This document shows positions 1-12,465 of a stretch of DNA of 64,000 nucleotides, one piece after another (positions within the stretch are counted from its first letter, which is position 1; each line of letters begins with the position of its first letter). Where the stretch lies: assembly GCF_009731355.2 (NCBI RefSeq), contig NZ_AP022810.1:1268001-1332000 (forward strand), in the 5' to 3' direction. The position numbers were made by a program, and so were the translations under genes. This DNA is from Desulfuromonas sp. AOP6. Lineage in GTDB: Bacteria > Desulfobacterota > Desulfuromonadia > Desulfuromonadales > SZUA-540. The notes beneath the pieces are model-generated. The model was not told the DNA's origin and searched no databases. It saw only the letters and a program-made list of their open reading frames with translations.

Positions 1-2870
1 ACAGCGGTACCTCCAGCTACGATCCTGCAACAGGTAAATTCAATGAAGTCAATTCGCTGCTGAACAGTGCCGGCGAACTGATGAAACCCTTCAAATACAC
101 TGACCTGACTGACTTTGCTAAAAAGGTCGACCTGTCGCTGGCCGGCAACATCATGGATTGCGGCGAGTGTCACGTCGGCGGCGGCGCCATGGAGTATGTG
201 CCCTACACTGTGCTGGGCGCCCGCACCCCCCTGCGGGATATCAAGAGCGTCGATGTCAATGGTTTCGGCCCGATTCTCAAGACCGATATCACTGCCTTCA
301 ACTACTTCATCGACAACTACGACGTCGATGGCGATGGCGACAAGAATGAAGTAATGCATATCGATTACGCCAACACGGGTGTGATGGAAGTCGACTGCTT
401 CATGTGTCACTTGCAGGGCTACCAGTATGAAGAGCGTAATACCGTGCTGCGCAAGGCCAAGATCGATGCCACCCGCGCGGTTGGCGCCGGGTTCGCCACG
501 GAAAACGCGGTGGTATGGGCCCCCACGGCCGACGAGGCTCCTTCCGGTTACGGTAACACTGTTGTTTATGACCCCGCCAAGCTGGCCAAGGACGTGAATG
601 GCAATGCCATTATTCCTTCGGGCTTCTTCGCTAATTTCGTCAAACGTACGCCGGCCTCCGAGAACTGCGCCTCCTGTCATATGGGTGAATACGCCGTGGA
701 CTGGAAAAAGCGCGGTGATCACTGGGAAGCCGAGCACGATTACGAAGTCCATTACATGTACGGGTGCATGGGTTGCCACGAGCGCATGCCTACGGCCGCT
801 CAGCCTGGTCCCTTTACCTCGGAGGATGGCGGAGCCTATCCGTTCATGGGCACGGGACTGCTCGGCCACGATCCGGCCAAGGGTAATGCGCCCTACAGTT
901 CTCTCTACAACGGCAATGACAACGTGGCCTTTAAGGGCTGTGAGGGGTGTCACCTCACCGGCACCAATGGCGCCGAACAGTTCGGCGCGCCCGATCCCAC
1001 CGCGGCTCACCAGGCTGCCGGCCTTACCGCCAGTATCGTGCAGAGCGGCATTGACGGCGTCGCCAACATCAGTCACATCGACCTGATGGATTGCTCGGCT
1101 TGTCACAGCCGCAAAATATCCAGCAGTGTGTGGAACACCGGCGGTGCCGTGGTCGATGCCACCGGCGCCGATCCGGTCGGGCGTCTGGCCGACCATGAGA
1201 ACGAGTTCGTCGATCGCAACAATATGACCGATCGTACCGGGCTGGCCTGGTACAATGGCAAACTGTTGCGGGTAGGTATCCTCAATACCATGTTCTATCG
1301 TGATAAAAACGACATCGACTTCGATGCCAACCTCGATGGGCGTGGCGGCGGCATGGATGCGCTGCTCATGACCCAGGTGCTGGCCGTCAATGAGACCAAC
1401 GGCTGGAAGTCCCTCACCGAAGATACACACGGTAACGTGACGGCGGCGGCGATCGATGCCCGTGTCGCCGCCATGAACGCCGCGGTCGACGCCTGGGCCG
1501 GCGTTACCGGCAAGGCGCAGACCAAGCTGTCCTTCATGGGAGTCCCCTTCAAGGATCAGCACAGTGTCTCCCCCGCGGCGCTGGCTTGGGGCGCAAATGG
1601 CTGCGCCGACTGCCATGCCGCTGGGTCTGAATTCTATCGCGGTGCCATGCGCATGGTCGGAGACGACATGACCATGTACTGGAATGATGACTTCGTCCCC
1701 TACACCAAGGCCAACGGCTCCACACAGGCCACGGACTTCCACCCCAATACCAAGAACAAGGTCGCCAATCGCTCTATCGCCGTGTCGGCGACTAACGGCA
1801 CCCTGAGTCTGGATGCCGATGGGGATGGGACACCGGAAAGTTACAAGACGGTGCGGGATGTCGATCGTTCCGAAACCCTGTATGAAGGCACCTTCATGAC
1901 CAACGCCGACTTCGCGGATGCCTACAGCTCCACGGGAGCTATCGGGTTTGCCGGTAACGAAAAGGGGTGGCTGCTGAAGGTTCAGGCCAAGGATACCGCA
2001 ACGGGTGTCATCACCACCCGTACCCGGGCCATTTCCGGCAACGTGGCCGATTTGACCGCTCTGCTGGCCAATCTGGGCGGGTTTGCCACGGGTGATTTTG
2101 AATTCACCATCACCGACAATGGCGCCGGGGGGATCACCCTTACGGCCGATGCTGGGTACCAGATTCGGCTGCATCCCCAGGCGGATTCGGGTAATTTCAT
2201 GATTGCCAACGCCCAGTGGAAGGCCGCTCCCGTCAAGGGTATCAATGGTGTCGATTACTCCGGTCGCGACGCCTGGCTCGCTTATCTGGACACTCTCAAC
2301 AACGCGGCCGCCTTCGGTATCGGCGTGGATCCGGTGGCCGTCTTCTCGGCACCGACCACCGAGGTTGCGGTCAACACGGCCTTTGACTTCGTGGCCGACA
2401 CCAGCGTCAACACCCAGGGAACCTTCGCGTATTCCTGGCTGATCAACGACGGCAGCGGTACGACCCTGACCGGCGCCACCGCCAGCCACAGCTTCACCAA
2501 GACCGGCAGCTTCCTGGTGACGCTGTATGTCGAAGATGAGGAAGGCAAGCGGGCTGCTGATTCCAAGTACGTCAAGGTCGTGGCACCGGCACCCGACACC
2601 ACCATCAGCTACACGCAGATTGCCGGTACCAACAGTGCCGAAGTCACCTTCGCCAACATGCCGACCCACACCCGCCTGCTGCTCTACTGGGGGGACGGTA
2701 CCTACCAGTGGGTTACGGACGACCAGGCAGAGCTGACAGTGACCAAGGCCTTCCGAGCCGTATCGACTTATGACAAGGGGGATCACTACGAGTACCTGAC
2801 CCGCGTCTATGTCTACAACGGCAGCACACGGGTGGACTACGAGACCACCACTGTTTCACTGGTAAAATAA
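1..2870 (+). CDS. Multiheme c-type cytochrome with PKD-like C-terminus, 5' end outside window
   Basis: The reading frame is open from base 3 with no stop upstream, so the first in-window ATG at 81 is internal and the true start lies left of the window. Seven CxxCH heme-binding motifs are visible (CGECH, CFMCH, CASCH, CMGCH, CEGCH, CSACH, CADCH). By comparison with the paralogue at 5678-9475, an eighth is expected in the missing N-terminus. After the heme region comes a PKD-like beta domain (about nt 2316-2590) and a final beta-rich segment with the motif YWGDGTY. The product is expected to be exported and to carry electrons in the periplasm or at the cell surface; no acceptor can be deduced. 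The last ~185 residues are nearly identical to those of the paralogue. A strong hairpin follows the TAA stop. Confidence 0.9.
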   Translation, partial: SGTSSYDPATGKFNEVNSLLNSAGELMKPFKYTDLTDFAKKVDLSLAGNIMDCGECHVGGGAMEYVPYTVLGARTPLRDIKSVDVNGFGPILKTDITAFNYFIDNYDVDGDGDKNEVMHIDYANTGVMEVDCFMCHLQGYQYEERNTVLRKAKIDATRAVGAGFATENAVVWAPTADEAPSGYGNTVVYDPAKLAKDVNGNAIIPSGFFANFVKRTPASENCASCHMGEYAVDWKKRGDHWEAEHDYEVHYMYGCMGCHERMPTAAQPGPFTSEDGGAYPFMGTGLLGHDPAKGNAPYSSLYNGNDNVAFKGCEGCHLTGTNGAEQFGAPDPTAAHQAAGLTASIVQSGIDGVANISHIDLMDCSACHSRKISSSVWNTGGAVVDATGADPVGRLADHENEFVDRNNMTDRTGLAWYNGKLLRVGILNTMFYRDKNDIDFDANLDGRGGGMDALLMTQVLAVNETNGWKSLTEDTHGNVTAAAIDARVAAMNAAVDAWAGVTGKAQTKLSFMGVPFKDQHSVSPAALAWGANGCADCHAAGSEFYRGAMRMVGDDMTMYWNDDFVPYTKANGSTQATDFHPNTKNKVANRSIAVSATNGTLSLDADGDGTPESYKTVRDVDRSETLYEGTFMTNADFADAYSSTGAIGFAGNEKGWLLKVQAKDTATGVITTRTRAISGNVADLTALLANLGGFATGDFEFTITDNGAGGITLTADAGYQIRLHPQADSGNFMIANAQWKAAPVKGINGVDYSGRDAWLAYLDTLNNAAAFGIGVDPVAVFSAPTTEVAVNTAFDFVADTSVNTQGTFAYSWLINDGSGTTLTGATASHSFTKTGSFLVTLYVEDEEGKRAADSKYVKVVAPAPDTTISYTQIAGTNSAEVTFANMPTHTRLLLYWGDGTYQWVTDDQAELTVTKAFRAVSTYDKGDHYEYLTRVYVYNGSTRVDYETTTVSLVK

Positions 2871-3002: not shown

Positions 3003-3671
3003 TTACAGGGTTTCCAGATCCACCAATCCCAGCTTGACCGCATAGCGCACCAGCTCGACCCGGCTATGAATTTCCAGTTTCTTCATGAGATTGGCCCGAT
3101 GATTCTCGGCGGTTTTGGGACTGAGGCCCAACTGTTCGGCAATGGCTTTGGTCGTGTGCCCTTCTACGATCAAACGCATGATCTGCTGCTCGCGGGGGGA
3201 GAGCAGACTGTAGCGTTCGTCACTGGCCGATTCCTTGCCATCGCCTGAAACGAGCTGTCCCACAACTTCCTGGGACACATTGCCATCCAGATAAAATTCG
3301 CCGCGCAGCAAGGTGTCCATGGCCTGGACCAGTTTGGCGCTGGTGGCCTCCTTGACCACGTAGCCATGAGCGCCGGCCTTGAAAGCCTCAGCCACATATT
3401 CGAAACGCGGATGCATGCTCAGCATGAGGATCCGTACTCCGGGCTGACTTTGGGAGATGCTGCGCGTCACTTCAATGCCGGTCATATCCGGCAGCGAGAC
3501 ATCCATGGTCATGAGGTCGGGCCGCAGGTCCTGGGCCAGCCTGAGGGCGTCCTGACCATTTCCCGCTTCGCCGATGACCGTATAGCTGCCGGTGCGGGCA
3601 ATCAGACTTTTGAGTCCCTCGCGGAAAAGCGGGTGATCGTCAACCAGTAGAACGCGTTTTTTGGGAGTCAT
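3003..3671 (-). CDS. NarL/FixJ-family response regulator
   Basis: This 222-residue protein has an N-terminal receiver domain and a C-terminal LuxR-type helix-turn-helix. The acidic pair is D11-D12, the likely phospho-acceptor is D57 (MTMD), the switch Ser is S85 and the conserved Lys is K107. The HTH begins near LSPREQQIMRLI and contains the recognition segment KTAENHRANLMKKL. It lies 33 bases downstream of a HisKA_3-type histidine kinase on the same strand, so the two are an operon and very probably a cognate pair. Its location between two large cytochrome genes suggests control of extracellular electron-transfer genes, but this is inference. Confidence 0.92.
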   Translation of the reverse strand: MTPKKRVLLVDDHPLFREGLKSLIARTGSYTVIGEAGNGQDALRLAQDLRPDLMTMDVSLPDMTGIEVTRSISQSQPGVRILMLSMHPRFEYVAEAFKAGAHGYVVKEATSAKLVQAMDTLLRGEFYLDGNVSQEVVGQLVSGDGKESASDERYSLLSPREQQIMRLIVEGHTTKAIAEQLGLSPKTAENHRANLMKKLEIHSRVELVRYAVKLGLVDLETL

Positions 3672-3704: not shown

Positions 3705-5114
3705 TCAATTCCCCGTGATAGGGATTTCGATCAGAATACGGGTGCCCTTTCCCGGCGCTGAAGCGACCCTGAACTTGCCGTTTAGAAACTGGACTCTTTC
3801 GAACATGCCTACCAGCCCGAGTTTGTTGCCACTGTTGATCGGGTTCATCTGATCCTGGAGGTTGAAGCCAGCACCATTGTCTTCAATGCGCAGCAGAATG
3901 TCGGGGTGGGAGGCGGTAAGCCGTATGGTCACCTGTCTGGCTCCGGCGTGTTTCACCACATTGTTCAGAGCCTCCTGAATAATGCGATAGATATTGATTT
4001 CTGCGTCGCTGCTCAGTTTGACCTCTTTCATCCCCCCCGTCTTGAAGTCGATAGACAGGGAGTGCATCGATTTGACCTTTTCCATGTGGTCATGGACTGC
4101 GTCGACCAGGCCGAGCCGTTCAAGAGAGGAAGGTCGCAACGCGCCGGAGAGTTTTCGCACGGAGTTGATAGCCGAGAGGATATTCGCGTTGATGGCCATC
4201 AACCGTTTCTGAATGTCCTCGGGTTGAGAGCCAAGATCTTCAGCCAGGGTTTCCGTAGCCATTTTTACCGCATTGAGCCTTTGGCCCAGGTCATCATGCA
4301 GCTCCCGCGAAATGAATTTGCGCTCCTCTTCCTGGGCGTTCAGCAGACGGTGGGATAGTGCGCGTATTCGCTGTTCCGATTCTTTCCGGCTGGTGATATC
4401 GCGGGCCACTGCCAGTTTGGCAGGTTGGTTAAGCCCCGGCATGCGGATGCCCAGTTCAATGACCGAATACCAGGCGCTGTTGGCCTGGTTGAAAAATTCC
4501 TTGTACAGCGGTTCTCCTGACTTGAAAACTTCATCGCGGCTGCAATCGTCACATGGAGAGTTCAAGCCCCGGCACAGTTTGTGACACGGATCTGTACTGA
4601 TGTCGCCCTGGCAGGATTCCAGCATTTTTTTATTGGCATAGACGATTTTGTGGTCTTCTGAGACCACGTAGACACGATCCTCCATGGCATTCAGCAGAAG
4701 CCGCAAAGTTTGTTGAGAGATGACCATGGCCTCGGCCATGACCTGGCAGTCGGTTTGATCCTTGAATGTGCCGATAATAGCCGGCTTCCCATTGAATTCA
4801 ACTCTTTTAGTCTCGATCTCCATCCAGAAGATGGTTCCATCCACGCGCGCGGATGGTTGCGCCCAGCCGGTGTGGGAAATGTCCTCGGAAATCATTCGGT
4901 CGTGCATGTCTTTAAAGAGGTCCAGGGTCTCCGCATCGGGATAGACTTCCGTGAACAGGTCCTGTTGAAGCAGGCTGTTTTTATTAGGGAAGCCAAAGAT
5001 GTCGGCAAAACGCTGGTTGAGGTAGATGAGCCTGTTGTCCTGACAGACGTAAGTTCCCAGGGTGAGGTTCTCCGCGATGGTTGTCCCCAGGCTGGACTCC
5101 GTTTCAATCTGCAT
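3705..5114 (-). CDS. PAS-PAS histidine kinase, NarX/DesK type, with cysteine-rich second PAS
   Basis: The 469-residue protein has no membrane segment and should be cytoplasmic. The first PAS domain (about 15-125) is followed by a second (about 140-245) carrying five clustered cysteines (C168, C177, C181, C188, C191). The HisKA_3 dimerisation domain has the motif RELHDDLGQR with phospho-accepting H273, and the C-terminal HATPase has the N box NNVVKHA and the G box DNGAGF. The start at 5114 is supported by an AGGAGGT ribosome-binding site nine bases upstream. It is co-transcribed with the downstream NarL-type regulator. The Cys cluster could bind a metal or sense redox state; nothing in the sequence names the signal. 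Confidence 0.9.
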   Translation of the reverse strand: MQIETESSLGTTIAENLTLGTYVCQDNRLIYLNQRFADIFGFPNKNSLLQQDLFTEVYPDAETLDLFKDMHDRMISEDISHTGWAQPSARVDGTIFWMEIETKRVEFNGKPAIIGTFKDQTDCQVMAEAMVISQQTLRLLLNAMEDRVYVVSEDHKIVYANKKMLESCQGDISTDPCHKLCRGLNSPCDDCSRDEVFKSGEPLYKEFFNQANSAWYSVIELGIRMPGLNQPAKLAVARDITSRKESEQRIRALSHRLLNAQEEERKFISRELHDDLGQRLNAVKMATETLAEDLGSQPEDIQKRLMAINANILSAINSVRKLSGALRPSSLERLGLVDAVHDHMEKVKSMHSLSIDFKTGGMKEVKLSSDAEINIYRIIQEALNNVVKHAGARQVTIRLTASHPDILLRIEDNGAGFNLQDQMNPINSGNKLGLVGMFERVQFLNGKFRVASAPGKGTRILIEIPITGN

Positions 5115-5677: not shown

Positions 5678-8600
5678 ATGAAGAGGAGGAGTTTGACAAG
5701 ATGGGTGCTCGGTGGGGCGCTGGCGGCAGCCGGCCTGACCCTGAGTGCCGGTCTGGCGTTTGCCGCCCACCCGCCGGTGACGCTTTATACCTATGAAGAA
5801 TTGGCCATGCAGTACGGCATGGAAAAGATGCCGGTCCAGGTCGATCCCAACACCTTACGCGGTTTCCCTTACAGCCCCAAGCAGACCTGCGGAGGCTGTC
5901 ATGAGTATACGCAGATCTCCGATCACGCCTTCCACGCCGCCCTGGGCATGCACGAGTGGCAGGACACGGCGGATGGCGAGTTCAAAATCGACGATCCCAA
6001 TGTCATCAAACCCTGGACGCAGTCCGGGGCCATGTGGGGCAAGTGGTGAAGTCCCTCTCTTCGCCAGGTGGCGAACTTCATGGATCAGAACCCTGCAACA
6101 CCCGCAGTTGATGACAAGTATTATACGGAACAAGAATTTTTAGCTCAGACCGACCTGACCACTTGGGACATGGCGGTTTACTGCGGCACCTGCCACGTCG
6201 GCGGCGGTTTTGGTGAAAAAGACCGCAACGGTGTGCGCCTCTCGATGAAAAATCCCGCCGGCGGTATGGACCCTGGCGCGGCAGGATTCTCGCTGACCAC
6301 GCCCTACAATGCCTACAACCACTATGTGTTCGAGCTGTTCACCAAAGACACAGGACTGCCGCAACATGTGGTCGCCCAGGCTCCCTGGGCTTACCCGGTC
6401 TATGAGGGCATGGAACCTGTGACGGCTCCGCAGGGTTGGGGCCAGGCAATGACCATGACCCTGCCCGATGGCTCTGCCATGCCCGTGGCCGATGGTCAAC
6501 TCCTGATGCCCAACGTCAAGGAGATGGACTGCCTTTACTGTCACTTTAAGGGCTATAACAACCTCATGGCCTCGGTGATGACCTACAGTGGTGCCCATAA
6601 CGCGGCTCCCATGGCCGGTTCTGGCCTGATGGACACCAACAGCCTCAGCCCCACCTACCAGGGCTATACCGTGGATGCAGGCAATGGCAAGACCCTGATG
6701 GGCGCGCCAGCCATGGTCACTATGGATCAAAACGGCCTCGTCAGCCTGAGCGATTATGCCCTGGGCAATCTGCGGGGGAATCCGGATGAGGCCAACTGCC
6801 GTCAGTGCCATGCGCCAAGCTCCCTGGAAGATCTGCCGGACATGATGCGAGATTTCCTCTCTTCGGCGCCCATGGTCTATACCGGCAACTTCTCCCAGTC
6901 CTTTACCGGTCTGGCCATGCCGTCTTTCGACTTTAACGCTCCCTTCGGCAATACCTGGAACTGGACAGAAGCCCCTCTGGGAGCGCCCTATCCGCCAGGT
7001 CTGGCCTATCCGACTTCAGGGATTCTCACCGTTGGCGACGTCATGGCCGGCATGGGGATCATCGGTGGCAACTGGGCCTACATCCCTTCCATCGGCTTCC
7101 CTGCCGCCATGGGGCCCACGGTCTACAATACGGGCATCTTCCCCTTTGGCCCCAACGGCATGCCGGCAGCCGAGCTGCTGGATCCCTACGATCCGGCCAC
7201 TTTCGACTGGTCCGATCCCAATGCCATGCAGATTCTCATGGCCAAGGAGATCGGTGGCGGCAATCCGGCGGGCACCGGCCCTCTCTATTTCGAGGCGCCC
7301 CTGCTTGACGCCAGCGGCAATCCCACCGGCTTCATGGACCAGAACGCTCTGAAGAAGGGCATCGTGCCTTTCCCCCGCGCCGAGTGGTTCAAGCGTGGCG
7401 ATATCTTCGGCAATGCCGAGCAGGAAGTGCATCTGGCCATGGGCTGCGAAGGCTGCCACATGGATACAAACACCACCAAGGTCGATCAGTATGATGCGGA
7501 AGGCCGCATCGTCTTTGACGGCAAGAGCCAGTGCGACCCGGGTCGCGGTTTCGATGCGGCCAGCGGCGTTGAAAACGGTACGCTTGTTGACGGAGTGATG
7601 TTCGACTCAAACAACACGGTGAAAAAGTGCGCCGACTGTCACGTTACCGGCAAAAATTCCGATGGCGTGGCGATCAACACCTTTGGTGCGCCCGACCCAA
7701 CCGCTGCCCACCAGGCCGCCGGCTTGACCGCCAATCTGGTTCAGGCTGTTGGTCCGCAGGGTCTCGTGCCCGGCAATCACCTTGACATCATTGACTGTAC
7801 GGTCTGCCATGTCTATAAAAAGCAGATGGCCGCACGCCTGCTCGATTCCACCTCAGGTCATCGTTTCCCGACCATGGTGGGCTTCGACGAGTCCCAGGGC
7901 ATGCTGGGCATGTTCGACGATCCCTTCGGTATGGGTATGCCGGCGGGCAGCAATGCCACCGAATGGCAGCCGCTTTATGCCTGGCAGAAACAAGGGATGT
8001 CCGATCAGAACAGTGATCCGAACTGGCGCCGGAAGATCATGCAGATCAACATGATCACCGCCACGCTGTGGAACAACATCGGTTCCACCGTGGATGCCAA
8101 CGGCGACGGTCAGACCGGGCGTCATGCGTTGACCTACGATCCCGCCACGGATCCTGCCTACACCGGCATGGTACAGAAAACCTACTATGATCCCTGGATT
8201 CAGCGTGACCTCAAGGCCGGTCTGAACTTCGGCCCCAGTGGGTTTGCTCCCATCCCTGTCGGCTTCGGCGGCGGCGCCTATCAATCCGCCTATGCTCCCG
8301 ACGGCTCCTTCACCGGTGCCTGGCAGTATGTCGGTGTCTACGGCGGCAACATCATGTTCTCCACGCCGGAAGAAATCGAAGCCTACAAGGCCTACCGCAA
8401 TGCCATCGCCCCTGCTGTCGATGGCAAGGATTGGACCGACACCGAGCTGCTGCTCGGCGGCGCTCCTTTCATGATCACCCACAACGTACGCAGCACCGAC
8501 AAGTTCGTGCTGGGCAAAAACTGCAGTGATTGTCATGCTGCAGGCAAAGGCTTCTTCGATGGCGGCTTCAACATGACCGGTACCGCCATCAAGGCGAACG

Positions 8601-9475
8601 CCGGCGGTCAGTTTATGGCCTCTGGAGCAGAAGAACTTGTCATCGTCGCCAAAGCGACCGACCTTACCACGGCGGCTGAAATTGCCACCAAGGATGGTGT
8701 CGCTTTGGAAGTTCCCTTCGAAGAACTCGGCAATTGGGATGCCGCCACCAAGACCTTCACGCCTGAGCCGGCTGGGGCCTACAAGCGGGTGACGGATCTG
8801 GATCGCAGCGTGGCTCTTTACCCCGCTGAATCCTCCTACACGGCTGCTGACGGGACGGTCTATGCTGATCGTTCTGCCTGGGTTGCCTACCTGAACACTC
8901 TCAGCAACCCGGCTGATTTCGGTATCGGCGTGGATCCTGTGGCCGTCTTCTCGGCACCGACCACCGAGGTTACGGTCAATGCGGCCTTTGACTTTGTCGC
9001 TGATGTCAGCGCCAACACCCAGGGAACCTTCGCGTATTCCTGGCTGATCAACGACGGCAGCGGTACGACCCTGACCGGCGCCACCGCCAGCCACACCTTT
9101 ACCAAGACCGGCAGCTTCCTGGTGACGCTGTATGTCGAAGATGAGGAAGGCAAGCGAGCCACCGATTCCAAGTACGTCAAGGTTGTGGCTCCGGCACCCG
9201 ATACCACCATCAGCTACAGTCAGATTGCCGGCACCAACAGCGCCGAAGTCACCTTCGCCAACATGCCGACCCACACCCGTCTGCTGCTCTACTGGGGGGA
9301 CGGTACCTATGAATGGGTGACGGACGACCAGCCTGATCTGACGGTGACCAAGGCTTTCCGAGCCGTATCGACTTATGACAAGGGGACTTATTACCAGTAC
9401 CTGACCCGTGTCTATGTCTACAACGGCAGTACCCGCGTCGACTACAAGACAGCCACGGTTACTCTGGTTAAATAA
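5678..9475 (+). CDS. Octaheme c-type cytochrome, predicted selenoprotein (in-frame UGA at 6047), PKD-like C-terminus
   Basis: The ATG at 5678 has an AAGAAAGGA ribosome-binding site. It encodes a Sec signal peptide (basic start, hydrophobic 10-26, AFA cleavage near residue 29) followed by CGGCH at residues 71-75. The frame then meets a single UGA (codon 124, after GAMWGKW) and continues open in the same frame to 9475 with seven further CxxCH motifs (CGTCH, CLYCH, CRQCH, CEGCH, CADCH, CTVCH, CSDCH), giving eight in 1265 residues. A hairpin at 6060-6075 fits bacterial SECIS rules, so UGA is read here as selenocysteine 124. A UGA stop would separate the heme domain from its only signal peptide. 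The C-terminus has a PKD-like domain shared almost unchanged with the first cytochrome. An alternative is a nonsense mutation or sequencing error. Confidence 0.85.
6047..6075 (+). promoter_or_regulatory. Selenocysteine UGA codon and SECIS-like hairpin
   Basis: The UGA at 6047-6049 is followed ten bases later by a perfect six-base-pair stem, TTCGCC (6060-6065) with GGCGAA (6070-6075), closing the four-base loop AGGT. The loop lies 16 bases after the UGA and has a G in its first two positions, both within the published criteria for bacterial SECIS elements (loop 16-37 bases from UGA, G early in the loop). The AGGU loop also resembles the loop of the E. coli fdhF element. selA, selB, selC and selD would be needed elsewhere in the genome; none lies in this window. 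Confidence 0.72.
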
Positions 9476-9551: not shown

Positions 9552-9577
9552 GCCCGGATTCTGTTCCGGGCTTTTTT
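9552..9577 (+). terminator. Rho-independent terminator
   Basis: A seven-base-pair stem (GCCCGGA 9552-9558 with TCCGGGC 9565-9571) is followed at once by six T residues. It is a second terminator behind the octaheme cytochrome and insulates it from the downstream barrel gene. Confidence 0.85.
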
Positions 9578-9717: not shown

Positions 9718-10560
9718 ATGAAGTGGTCTGTTTGTCTCCTGATACTTATACTTTGGGTTGCTCTGCCTGCCTCCGGGCAGTGTTCCAGTAAAAACAGGGA
9801 ACTCTCCTGGACTCTCATGGGAGGTGGTTATTTTCCTGATGGCGGCCGTCCTGCAAGCGATTCTGTTCTTTATGGAATCAAGCTAGGCTATACTCAACCA
9901 GGGTCCACCCTTTTTCAGACTCTGGCGTTGGAAGTTGACCTCTCGCGGATGGAGATTCGCTCGGGCACTCACAGTGAGCAAGGGTACGGAGGGCGTCTGG
10001 AGGCCCTTTACGGTTTGCGGAAGCAGGGGGTCTTTCGCCCTTTTCTGGCCCTTGGGGCCGGGGTTCTCGATCCTCCTGGTTCCCCAGACGCCGATTTTGT
10101 TGTAGCTTACGGGGGAGGGGCTTTTTATCGGCTCGGCTCCTTGTTCGGCCTGCGAGCCGATGTGCGTCATCTTTTGCCCATGTCAACGGACCACTACAAT
10201 GATTTTACAGCGACCTGCGGGATCACCATCTTCTTGGGCGGTAATCAGGCCGAACAAAAGAGAATCCCGAAAGACTCGGACAAAGATGGCGTGTCCGATT
10301 CCCGGGATCGCTGCCCTGAAACGCCACGCACTATGCAGGTGGATCGCCATGGTTGCCCGGATAACCCTCCTGACTCGGATGACGACGGCGTCGCAGATTA
10401 CCTCGACCGGTGTCCCGATACTCCAGAGGGCGCTTCCGTTGATGCAGCGGGTTGTCTGAGGGACAGCGATGGTGATGGTGTCCCCGACGCGCAGGATGAA
10501 TGTCCGCAAAATCCGCCGGGCCTGCCGGTTGATGAGCGGGGCTGCGTTCGTCTCGATTGA
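9718..10560 (+). CDS. OmpA-like outer-membrane barrel with three thrombospondin type 3 repeats
   Basis: This 280-residue protein has a signal peptide (hydrophobic residues 4-19) and a beta-rich region (about 28-175) typical of an eight-stranded OmpA-type barrel. Three calcium-binding TSP3 repeats (about 186-280) follow, with motifs DSDKDGVSD, DSDDDGVAD and DSDGDGVPD. Many relatives continue into a C-terminal OmpA peptidoglycan-binding domain; this one stops directly after the third repeat, so it is shorter than the usual architecture. The next gene begins within about 45 bases. The ribosome-binding site is weak (GGAT). An outer-membrane location is inferred; the barrel is too small to be a typical porin-cytochrome conduit. 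Confidence 0.78.
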   Translation: MKWSVCLLILILWVALPASGQCSSKNRELSWTLMGGGYFPDGGRPASDSVLYGIKLGYTQPGSTLFQTLALEVDLSRMEIRSGTHSEQGYGGRLEALYGLRKQGVFRPFLALGAGVLDPPGSPDADFVVAYGGGAFYRLGSLFGLRADVRHLLPMSTDHYNDFTATCGITIFLGGNQAEQKRIPKDSDKDGVSDSRDRCPETPRTMQVDRHGCPDNPPDSDDDGVADYLDRCPDTPEGASVDAAGCLRDSDGDGVPDAQDECPQNPPGLPVDERGCVRLD

Positions 10561-10604
10561 AACGAGGCCATTATTCACCGGTAGACCTCAATAGGGATGG
10601 TTCC

Positions 10605-11411
10605 GTGCCAAAGTTGAAACGTTACCTCCTGTGGCTTACTCTCTGTGTCCCCTGGGTCATTCTGCTGGTTTCCTTTCTGTGGGGGAGAGGGCAGGTTCAC
10701 GACTTTGCGAACCGCTGCGAATCCTGTCACCTGACCTTCAAGGGGGACGGTAGGCCTGGCAAATACACAAGGAGCATCGATTTCCTATGCATGGAGTGCC
10801 ATCATGTGTCCGCTGTGTATTCCCACCCCACCGGGATGGTGCCTTCCTTCGAGGTGCCTCAGGAAATGTCGCTGGACTGGTCGGGACGCATGACCTGTGC
10901 AACCTGCCATGATCCGCATGGCGAGAATATGATGGGCGGCGGCGACCTGCTACGGACGAAATATCGGGGCCAACTTTTCTGCCAGCAGTGTCACAATTAC
11001 TCCCTGCCTGCAGAAGGGCGGCACGGAGGCACCGGCGGACGAGCCCACTTCCGAGGCGAGACCACATCTGCTCAAAGAAAATGGACCCGTCTTCTTGACT
11101 CTGTTTCCGCCGAATGTCTGGCCTGTCATGACGGCGTCATTGCTTCGGCGACCTCCTACCGGGTTGAGGGGGAAAACGAGCCGATAACCTACAGCCAGCG
11201 GAAACTTTCCCATCCCATCGGCATCGATTATCGCCGAGCGGCGATGCGGGACAGGGAGCTGCGATCCCCGGAGGCCCTGGCCCCTTACATCACCCTCTTT
11301 GAAGGAAAAATTGGCTGCGGTTCCTGCCATAATGTATTTTCCCGGGAGAAAAATCTTTTGGTGGTCAATGACAGAGGCAGCTCTCTCTGTTTTGAATGCC
11401 ATATCAAATGA
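10605..11411 (+). CDS. Membrane-anchored heptaheme c-type cytochrome
   Basis: The 268-residue product has an uncleaved-looking N-terminal hydrophobic anchor (LLWLTLCVPWVILLVSFLW) and then seven CxxCH motifs: CESCH, CMECH, CATCH, CQQCH, CLACH, CGSCH and CFECH. The arrangement resembles NapC/doubled-CxxCH-type periplasmic cytochromes, and it probably passes electrons from the inner membrane to periplasmic carriers. The GTG at 10605 is chosen because it has a partial AGGGA site and starts just before the anchor. The frame also opens at a TTG at 10557 that overlaps the preceding stop but has no ribosome-binding site. It lies between the TSP3 barrel gene and a prolyl isomerase gene on the same strand, so all three probably form an operon. 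Confidence 0.85.
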   Translation: MPKLKRYLLWLTLCVPWVILLVSFLWGRGQVHDFANRCESCHLTFKGDGRPGKYTRSIDFLCMECHHVSAVYSHPTGMVPSFEVPQEMSLDWSGRMTCATCHDPHGENMMGGGDLLRTKYRGQLFCQQCHNYSLPAEGRHGGTGGRAHFRGETTSAQRKWTRLLDSVSAECLACHDGVIASATSYRVEGENEPITYSQRKLSHPIGIDYRRAAMRDRELRSPEALAPYITLFEGKIGCGSCHNVFSREKNLLVVNDRGSSLCFECHIK

Positions 11412-11439
11412 TTCAGCCTTTATCGGATAGGAGTTGTTT

Positions 11440-12465
11440 ATGTCCTTCAGGTATTTCTTAGCGTTAAGAAGTTTGTCGCTTATCGGTTTTTTTCTGCTGC
11501 TCTCCACCCAGGATGTCATGGCCGACGAGAGTGTCGTAGCCCGGGTTGGCGGCATTCCGATTACCACATACGAGCTCAAAAGACAGGTCAGCCGCATTCT
11601 GCCCCTGAACTCCAGTTATCATGGAGGCGTATCCAGAGAAAAGCTGGAAGAAATCAAGGAAAAAGCCTTGAGGGAACTTATCGAGCAGGGGATGAAAGTC
11701 CGATATGCCCTGGATAATGAAATCACGGTATCATCGGAGGAACTGGAGGCGCGCCTTCAGCCCGTCTGGGAAAAATTTCCGACCCCCGCCTTGTTGGCCG
11801 AAGCCCTGGAGGGAGAAAGCGTGTCGGCTTTGCGAGCCTCCGTCTACAGGGGATTGATAGCCAAAAAAGCCGAAGAAATCGCGATTGCACAGCAAGTCAG
11901 TGTGCAGGAGGAAGAGGTGATGGCATTCTATCAGGCCAACAGTCATCGCTTTTTCAGGCCCCGCATGTTTCGAGCCAGCCAGATCTTTATCAAGGTGGAC
12001 CCGCGACTGACTCTGGAACAGAAGCTTCCCTTTCTGGAAAAAGCAAAAAACCTGTCAGAACGCGGCAAGTCAGGCGAGGATTTTTACAATCTGGCCTACT
12101 ACAACTCCGAAGATGATAAACGTTTTGTGGGAGGAGATCTGGGGTACTTTCATGAAGGTCAGCTTATTGCCGATATTGAAAGAGCTATCCTGCAGATGAA
12201 GCCCGGTGAAATTTCCGGCCCGGTAGAGTCGATATATGGTTACCATGTGCTCAAACTTGTCGAGATCAAGGACCCGGTACAGCTTTCCTACGAGGAAAAG
12301 AAAGACGATATTCGCCGGGACCTGGAAAGACAGAGGTATGAAACCCTTTACAGCGACTGGATAACCTCTTTGCAGGAAACCTGCAAGGTGGAAATGATCG
12401 AGGCGGTTGATGTCGCCCGCCCTGGAGTAGGGGGACAGATAGAGAAAAGCACGCATCCTTTGTGA
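11440..12465 (+). CDS. SurA-like periplasmic peptidyl-prolyl cis-trans isomerase (parvulin type)
   Basis: The 341-residue protein has a signal peptide ending near VMADES, a SurA_N-type chaperone domain (about 25-165) and a PpiC/parvulin rotamase domain (about 170-275). The latter has the family motifs RASQIFIKV, GGDLGYF and ETEAILQM-like SIERAILQMKPGE. The ATG at 11440 is preferred over an in-frame TTG at 11434 because a TAGGAG site lies six bases upstream. It probably assists folding of exported proteins. Its position 28 bases behind a multiheme cytochrome gene suggests a role in maturing the cytochromes or barrel of this cluster; parvulin genes next to secreted cytochromes are familiar in Geobacter relatives. 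Confidence 0.88.
   Translation: MSFRYFLALRSLSLIGFFLLLSTQDVMADESVVARVGGIPITTYELKRQVSRILPLNSSYHGGVSREKLEEIKEKALRELIEQGMKVRYALDNEITVSSEELEARLQPVWEKFPTPALLAEALEGESVSALRASVYRGLIAKKAEEIAIAQQVSVQEEEVMAFYQANSHRFFRPRMFRASQIFIKVDPRLTLEQKLPFLEKAKNLSERGKSGEDFYNLAYYNSEDDKRFVGGDLGYFHEGQLIADIERAILQMKPGEISGPVESIYGYHVLKLVEIKDPVQLSYEEKKDDIRRDLERQRYETLYSDWITSLQETCKVEMIEAVDVARPGVGGQIEKSTHPL

Follow-up and report, generated by a model that had tools for sequence, protein, structure and literature searches.

A probable selenocysteine in a family of octaheme c-type cytochromes from Desulfuromonas and its relatives

Is a UGA codon that interrupts the gene of a multiheme cytochrome a stop or a sense codon, and if it is read as selenocysteine (Sec), what could that residue do among c-type hemes? 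The question is raised by positions 5678-9475 of the 64,000-nucleotide stretch of Desulfuromonas sp. AOP6 DNA analysed here (the window), where a sequence-only reading had proposed one gene with a single in-frame UGA at 6047-6049, decoded as Sec with the help of a SECIS-like hairpin.

The interrupted gene and its neighbourhood

When TGA is read as U, 5678-9475 translates into 1265 residues with exactly one UGA, at codon 124. The architecture proposed for the gene was confirmed: one CxxCH motif lies before the UGA and seven after it (6182 to 8536), a PKD-like domain is present in the C-terminal part, and the N-terminus upstream of the UGA looks, by eye, like a typical signal peptide (Table 1). 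We refer to this gene as class A. A tandem paralogue (class B), which the sequence-only reading had missed, starts at L022:9595 and has its own UGA at L022:9958-9960, 43 nt before the window start. The UGA sits at the same site in both genes, and both proteins read GKWU-x-P-S-x-R-Q there. The two proteins are about 30% identical overall, and their C-terminal 209 residues are 87% identical (window 2244-2870 and 8846-9475). C-terminal domains are likewise shared within one genome in L034 and L040, and this sharing suggests gene conversion of the tether domain.

Table 1. Features of the window around the class A gene
Feature	Position	Strand	Remark
Class B octaheme cytochrome, tandem paralogue, 3' part	1..2870	+	start and UGA before the window
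LuxR/NarL-type response regulator, between the two Sec genes	3003..3671	-	synteny kept in G130 and G075
PAS histidine kinase	3705..5114	-	partner of response regulator 3003..3671
Class A octaheme c-type cytochrome, predicted to contain Sec	5678..9475	+	1265 residues with U124
Predicted signal peptide (approximate)	5678..5764	+	MKRRSLTRWVLGGALAAAGLTLSAGLAFA; by eye, no predictor
Heme 1 motif CGGCH	5888..5902	+	motif scan
In-frame UGA, predicted Sec 124 in GKWUSPSLRQVA	6047..6049	+	homologue comparison
Putative SECIS hairpin UUCGCC-AGGU-GGCGAA	6060..6075	+	stem 6060-6065 (TTCGCC) with 6070-6075 (GGCGAA), loop AGGT 6066-6069; conservation, covariation
Heme 2 motif CGTCH(VGGG)	6182..6196	+	putative catalytic heme, by analogy with OTR
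Heme 3 motif CLYCH	6530..6544	+	
Heme 4 motif CRQCH	6797..6811	+	
Codon of Lys572 in FKRGD	7391..7393	+	aligned with OTR Lys153
Heme 5 motif CEGCH	7445..7459	+	
Heme 6 motif CADCH	7628..7642	+	
Heme 7 motif CTVCH	7796..7810	+	
Heme 8 motif CSDCH	8522..8536	+	
PKD domain, C-terminal, residues 1086-1169	8933..9184	+	PF18911, E=2.5e-11
Terminator-like hairpin with T run	9552..9577	+	3' of gene 5678-9475
Exported protein with TSP_3 repeats	9718..10560	+	syntenic G075 gene is an outer-membrane beta-barrel
Multiheme doubled-CXXCH cytochrome	10557..11411	+	
PpiC/SurA-type peptidyl-prolyl isomerase	11434..12465	+	

The order NHL lipoprotein, 11-heme doubled-CXXCH cytochrome, class B, divergent histidine kinase and response regulator, class A is kept in three families, with the NHL gene absent from the stretch read in G075. 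Downstream of class A lie the exported TSP_3 protein (a beta-barrel in G075), the multiheme cytochrome and the PpiC isomerase, and the G000 locus also has a large barrel-like protein without Pfam hits. By analogy, this neighbourhood looks like an outer-membrane electron conduit of the porin-cytochrome type. A tblastn search against plasmids gave no match.

Conservation of the UGA, the hairpin and the selenocysteine machinery

The first homologue set came from 17 genome contigs of Desulfuromonadaceae and Geobacteraceae (Geomonas, Geotalea and Geobacter), and every one of the class A/B homologues fetched first has TGA at the Sec site. A profile of the Sec region detected the family in 45 of the 277 genomes of the class and in 85 of the 395 genomes sampled from the phylum. 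Cultivated Geomonas and Geotalea species have members; the family was found in the window's phylum only, the one searched in depth. Across 145 distinct homologous contexts, the Sec column holds TGA in 118, Cys in 9, Ser in 12, Asp in 1 and other residues in 5, with TAA or TAG in none, and the contexts with neither Sec nor Cys are mainly Ser paralogues. The same UGA is present in at least 100 homologous genes from many genera, including tandem copies, a count inflated by near-copies as the UGA genes are partly non-independent. In complete class A/B genes the frame stays open for about 900-1300 codons after the UGA; on the draft contig L039 the two class A/B genes end 113-126 codons past it.

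On a tree built without the Sec column there are 8 changes between Sec and non-Sec, at least 5 of them forced by strongly supported branches. Cys at the site arises at least twice, and Cys and Sec members interleave. Exchange of Sec and Cys is the pattern expected of selenoproteins, and the interleaved Sec and non-Sec members together with the repeated Cys fit that pattern. The W-U-x-P-S-x-R-Q stretch around the site belongs to the best-conserved part of the family alignment, even beyond the SECIS. The octaheme core is also present in the Ser and Asp paralogues, which show that not every member needs a chalcogen. The Asp copy is a class B gene (L073:14743) of the G075 genome, which has five copies; it carries GAT at the Sec site with the 6-bp hairpin still in place, possibly a recent loss of Sec. 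Another member, L217:568-4995, has 16 CxxCH motifs and is apparently an extended Sec cytochrome.

The hairpin begins 10 nt after the UGA, with 16 nt between the UGA and the loop, and the 6-bp stem and AGGT loop lie where the sequence-only reading had placed them. That reading had held that the hairpin meets published bacterial SECIS criteria, but in single-sequence folding its z is -1.4 and 16 of 200 shuffles fold as well, so that the hairpin alone makes a weak case, and Rfam gave no SECIS match. It stands above chance because it is conserved and covarying across homologues, and on this ground the SECIS assignment was upheld. In 39 distinct UGA sequences, 94.9% of the stem cells pair, three of the six stem pairs change on both sides, and the stem covariation score is 0.319, against 0.109 +/- 0.018 for shuffled alignments and at most 0.10 for slid registers. 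Synonymous Arg changes on the 5' side (CGC/CGG/CGA) are mirrored on the 3' side by GCG/CCG/TCG, and synonymous Leu changes (CTT/CTC) by AAC/GAC. The loop is AGGU or AGUU in nearly all; its Leu codon is TTG in 77 of 77 UGA genes compared with 5 of 21 non-UGA genes (near-copies included), and where non-UGA genes use CTN the loop has no GU. The hairpin is absent from the Cys and Ser genes and kept in the single Asp gene.

The genome encodes the machinery for Sec: selA-selB-selD are consecutive at L023:2452-6836, SelB matches with 394.9 bits and tRNA-Sec with 77.3 bits, and SelD itself reads through a UGA, with Sec in SAGUAAK (the SAGUxxK motif). SelB was found in all 29 UGA-bearing genomes tested; its co-occurrence with the UGA did not separate the groups and is uninformative between them, because 45 of 46 genomes have SelB.

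How, then, is the UGA read? Read with the standard code, the frame closes at 6049 and there is a GTG start at 6068, as would suit a genuine stop, a nonsense mutation or a sequencing error in a split pseudogene or a pair of genes. Conservation makes this extremely improbable and in effect refutes it: more than 100 homologous genes, from numerous genera and including tandem copies, share the UGA, about 1000 intact codons follow it, and neither TAA nor TAG ever takes its place. c-type hemes need export, and the part downstream of the UGA has no export signal of its own. Sequencing error in particular is excluded, since the tandem paralogues and further genomes of the genus share this UGA. Decoding without selenium, with Trp or another standard amino acid inserted through near-cognate readthrough or a change of code, is just as improbable, although one distant homologue (L190) does have Trp at the site: nine homologues have Cys there, the Sec machinery with its UGA-containing selD is present, the UGA always lies directly upstream of the hairpin, and the hairpin, which is of the SelB type, shows covariation and has disappeared from the Cys and Ser genes. 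Taken together, the homologues, the covarying hairpin and the Sec genes support the original proposal, and codon 124 very probably encodes selenocysteine in this octaheme family. The sequence-only reading had taken Sec near hemes for an uncommon feature; in this family of at least 100 genes it appears instead to be the rule rather than an isolated oddity, and it has precedents among other cytochromes (see below).

Relation to octaheme tetrathionate reductase and a possible role for selenocysteine

The family profile was aligned with octaheme tetrathionate reductase (OTR) by hhalign, which gave 99.4% with a score of 177 over hemes 3-7. In single-sequence controls, reversed OTR gave 0.3%, other multihemes gave 70.6-88.9% (scores 47-58), and one OTR sequence gave 98.9%. 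From these profiles the Sec octaheme family appears to be a distant relative of OTR. In the numbering of 1SP3, residue 64 is the cysteine that OTR has between hemes 1 and 2, and residue 153 is the VKHG lysine; the second K of K/F-KRG aligns with this lysine and is Lys572 (FKRGD) in class A. Mowat et al. are said to have described Lys153 in 2004 as a ligand of the OTR active-site heme, and we take it to be the axial ligand of catalytic heme 2. The aligned Lys is kept in 9 of 9 Cys, 12 of 12 Ser, 1 of 1 Asp and 111 of 112 Sec members. Six members have Leu, Gln, Phe, Trp or Met in place of Sec, and in these the Lys is replaced by Asn or Arg; this joint loss comes from two lineages only, too few independent events for the sign test (p = 0.5). 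When hemes 1-2 were aligned alone, the local profile alignment was weak and the match of U124 with OTR Cys64 was not significant, and the correspondence of the two residues appears to be positional only.

Several OTR-family genes of the same phylum have a UGA of their own between hemes 1 and 2, in NNFU or NSFU. The OTR homologues L225, L228 and L229 have it in NNFU, and with many such UGA-bearing homologues Sec in OTR is probably common in the phylum. AlphaFold2 returned no usable model for class A residues 27-1080 (pLDDT 36) or the class B core (pLDDT 33), and PDB profile searches with the Sec proteins found the PKD domain and general multiheme matches and nothing else.

We propose that UGA 124 would be decoded as Sec by SelB and tRNA-Sec at the minimal SECIS hairpin 10 nt downstream. 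Electrons would arrive from the outer-membrane porin/multiheme conduit encoded next door and travel through the chain of hemes as far as the Lys-ligated heme 2, where a small substrate would be reduced and the Sec selenolate beside the heme would act as a nucleophile or labile ligand. The protein would be located at or beyond the outer membrane, the assignment of heme 2 as the active site and the part of Sec there being putative and drawn by analogy with OTR; the most obvious candidate substrates would be sulfur, nitrogen or selenium/tellurium oxyanions. In the distant members L207, L211 and L216 a single polypeptide carries both the Sec octaheme core and, C-terminal to it, a formate-dehydrogenase-gamma-like cytochrome b, with domain hits in L207 and L211; a quinol-driven reductase would be expected to have such a fusion. 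The conduit-like neighbours and the cytochrome b fusions make an exported octaheme reductase with Sec at a Lys-ligated heme the best reading, and the catalytic mechanism taken alone is a tentative proposal that we hold at slightly under an even chance.

The conduit-like neighbours would also suit a Sec that is real and non-catalytic, in an extracellular electron carrier whose synthesis is tied to the selenium supply by a translational switch. The two-component system between the two Sec genes and the octaheme core retained in the Ser and Asp paralogues point the same way. This alternative is nevertheless unlikely: a pure switch does not favour the replacement of Sec by Cys in at least two lineages, the OTR-like Lys is retained along with Sec, Cys or Ser, and the W-U-x-P-S-x-R-Q columns are highly conserved even outside the SECIS.

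On the catalytic reading, a large class of respiratory octaheme enzymes would employ Sec, as nucleophile or ligand, directly at the catalytic heme with its Lys ligand, and the supply of selenium would then control a step of extracellular reduction in bacteria that cycle metals and sulfur; we regard this broader picture as possible but rather doubtful. Selenocysteine enzymes mostly have thioredoxin-like folds, molybdenum/tungsten centres or NiFe centres. A Sec beside a catalytic c-heme would, if true, be a new type of selenium chemistry, set in at least 100 genes of organisms that respire metals and sulfur compounds. Because ordinary gene callers stop at the UGA, the annotated proteins of this family are probably truncated or split, and they are easily missed in proteomics of Geobacter relatives. 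With cultivated members and Cys, Ser and Asp variants available, the role of Sec is directly testable.

Comparison with known cytochrome and selenoprotein families

No NCBIfam model matches the window proteins. The openly licensed literature yielded no description of the Sec octaheme family, though an earlier one may exist elsewhere, and the family is not recognisable in most of the table of 119 selenoprotein families in a 2026 review (PMC13188914). That table includes ExtKL, GSU2204 and a GenBank-annotated OTR-family protein (PMC13188914), the last in agreement with the UGA in OTR-family genes. ExtKL and the GenBank-annotated OTR-family proteins are precedents for Sec in multiheme cytochromes (PMC13188914, PMC1914089).

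ExtKL, too, is a c-type cytochrome with several hemes from Geobacter relatives, and its gene has a single in-frame UGA (PMC1914089, PMC5877670), but it has five hemes, a size of about 50 kDa and another sequence, unlike the octaheme family of the window. The window proteins gave no hit at E<=1 to its model (NF040886, cut-off 250 bits), and membership was rejected; a separate ExtKL-type Sec cytochrome with its own UGA lies in the same genome at G000:C1:700474-701715. The GSU2204 family (NF041027) is also a listed selenoprotein family with CXXCH (PMC13188914). Membership was rejected here too, as the window proteins gave no hit, and GSU2204 genes without UGA occur elsewhere in the same genome.

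The outer-surface cytochromes of the MtrC/OmcA type resemble the window protein as exported multihemes found beside a porin and periplasmic multihemes, and the protein has a weak Mtrc-MtrF domain score below the Pfam cut-off; it differs in its eight hemes in OTR-like order and its predicted Sec. Against the OTR model TIGR04315 the window proteins gave no hit, and the best wider member reached 54.4 bits against a cut-off of 375, so membership was rejected. OTR (PDB 1SP3) nevertheless shares with the window family eight CxxCH motifs with hemes 3-7 collinear, the conserved lysine at the position of Lys153, and a Cys or Sec between hemes 1 and 2, while the window family has its predicted Sec in GxWUxPSxRQ rather than the NNF(U/C) of OTR, and extra loops and C-terminal PKD or other domains in proteins of 600-1470 aa.
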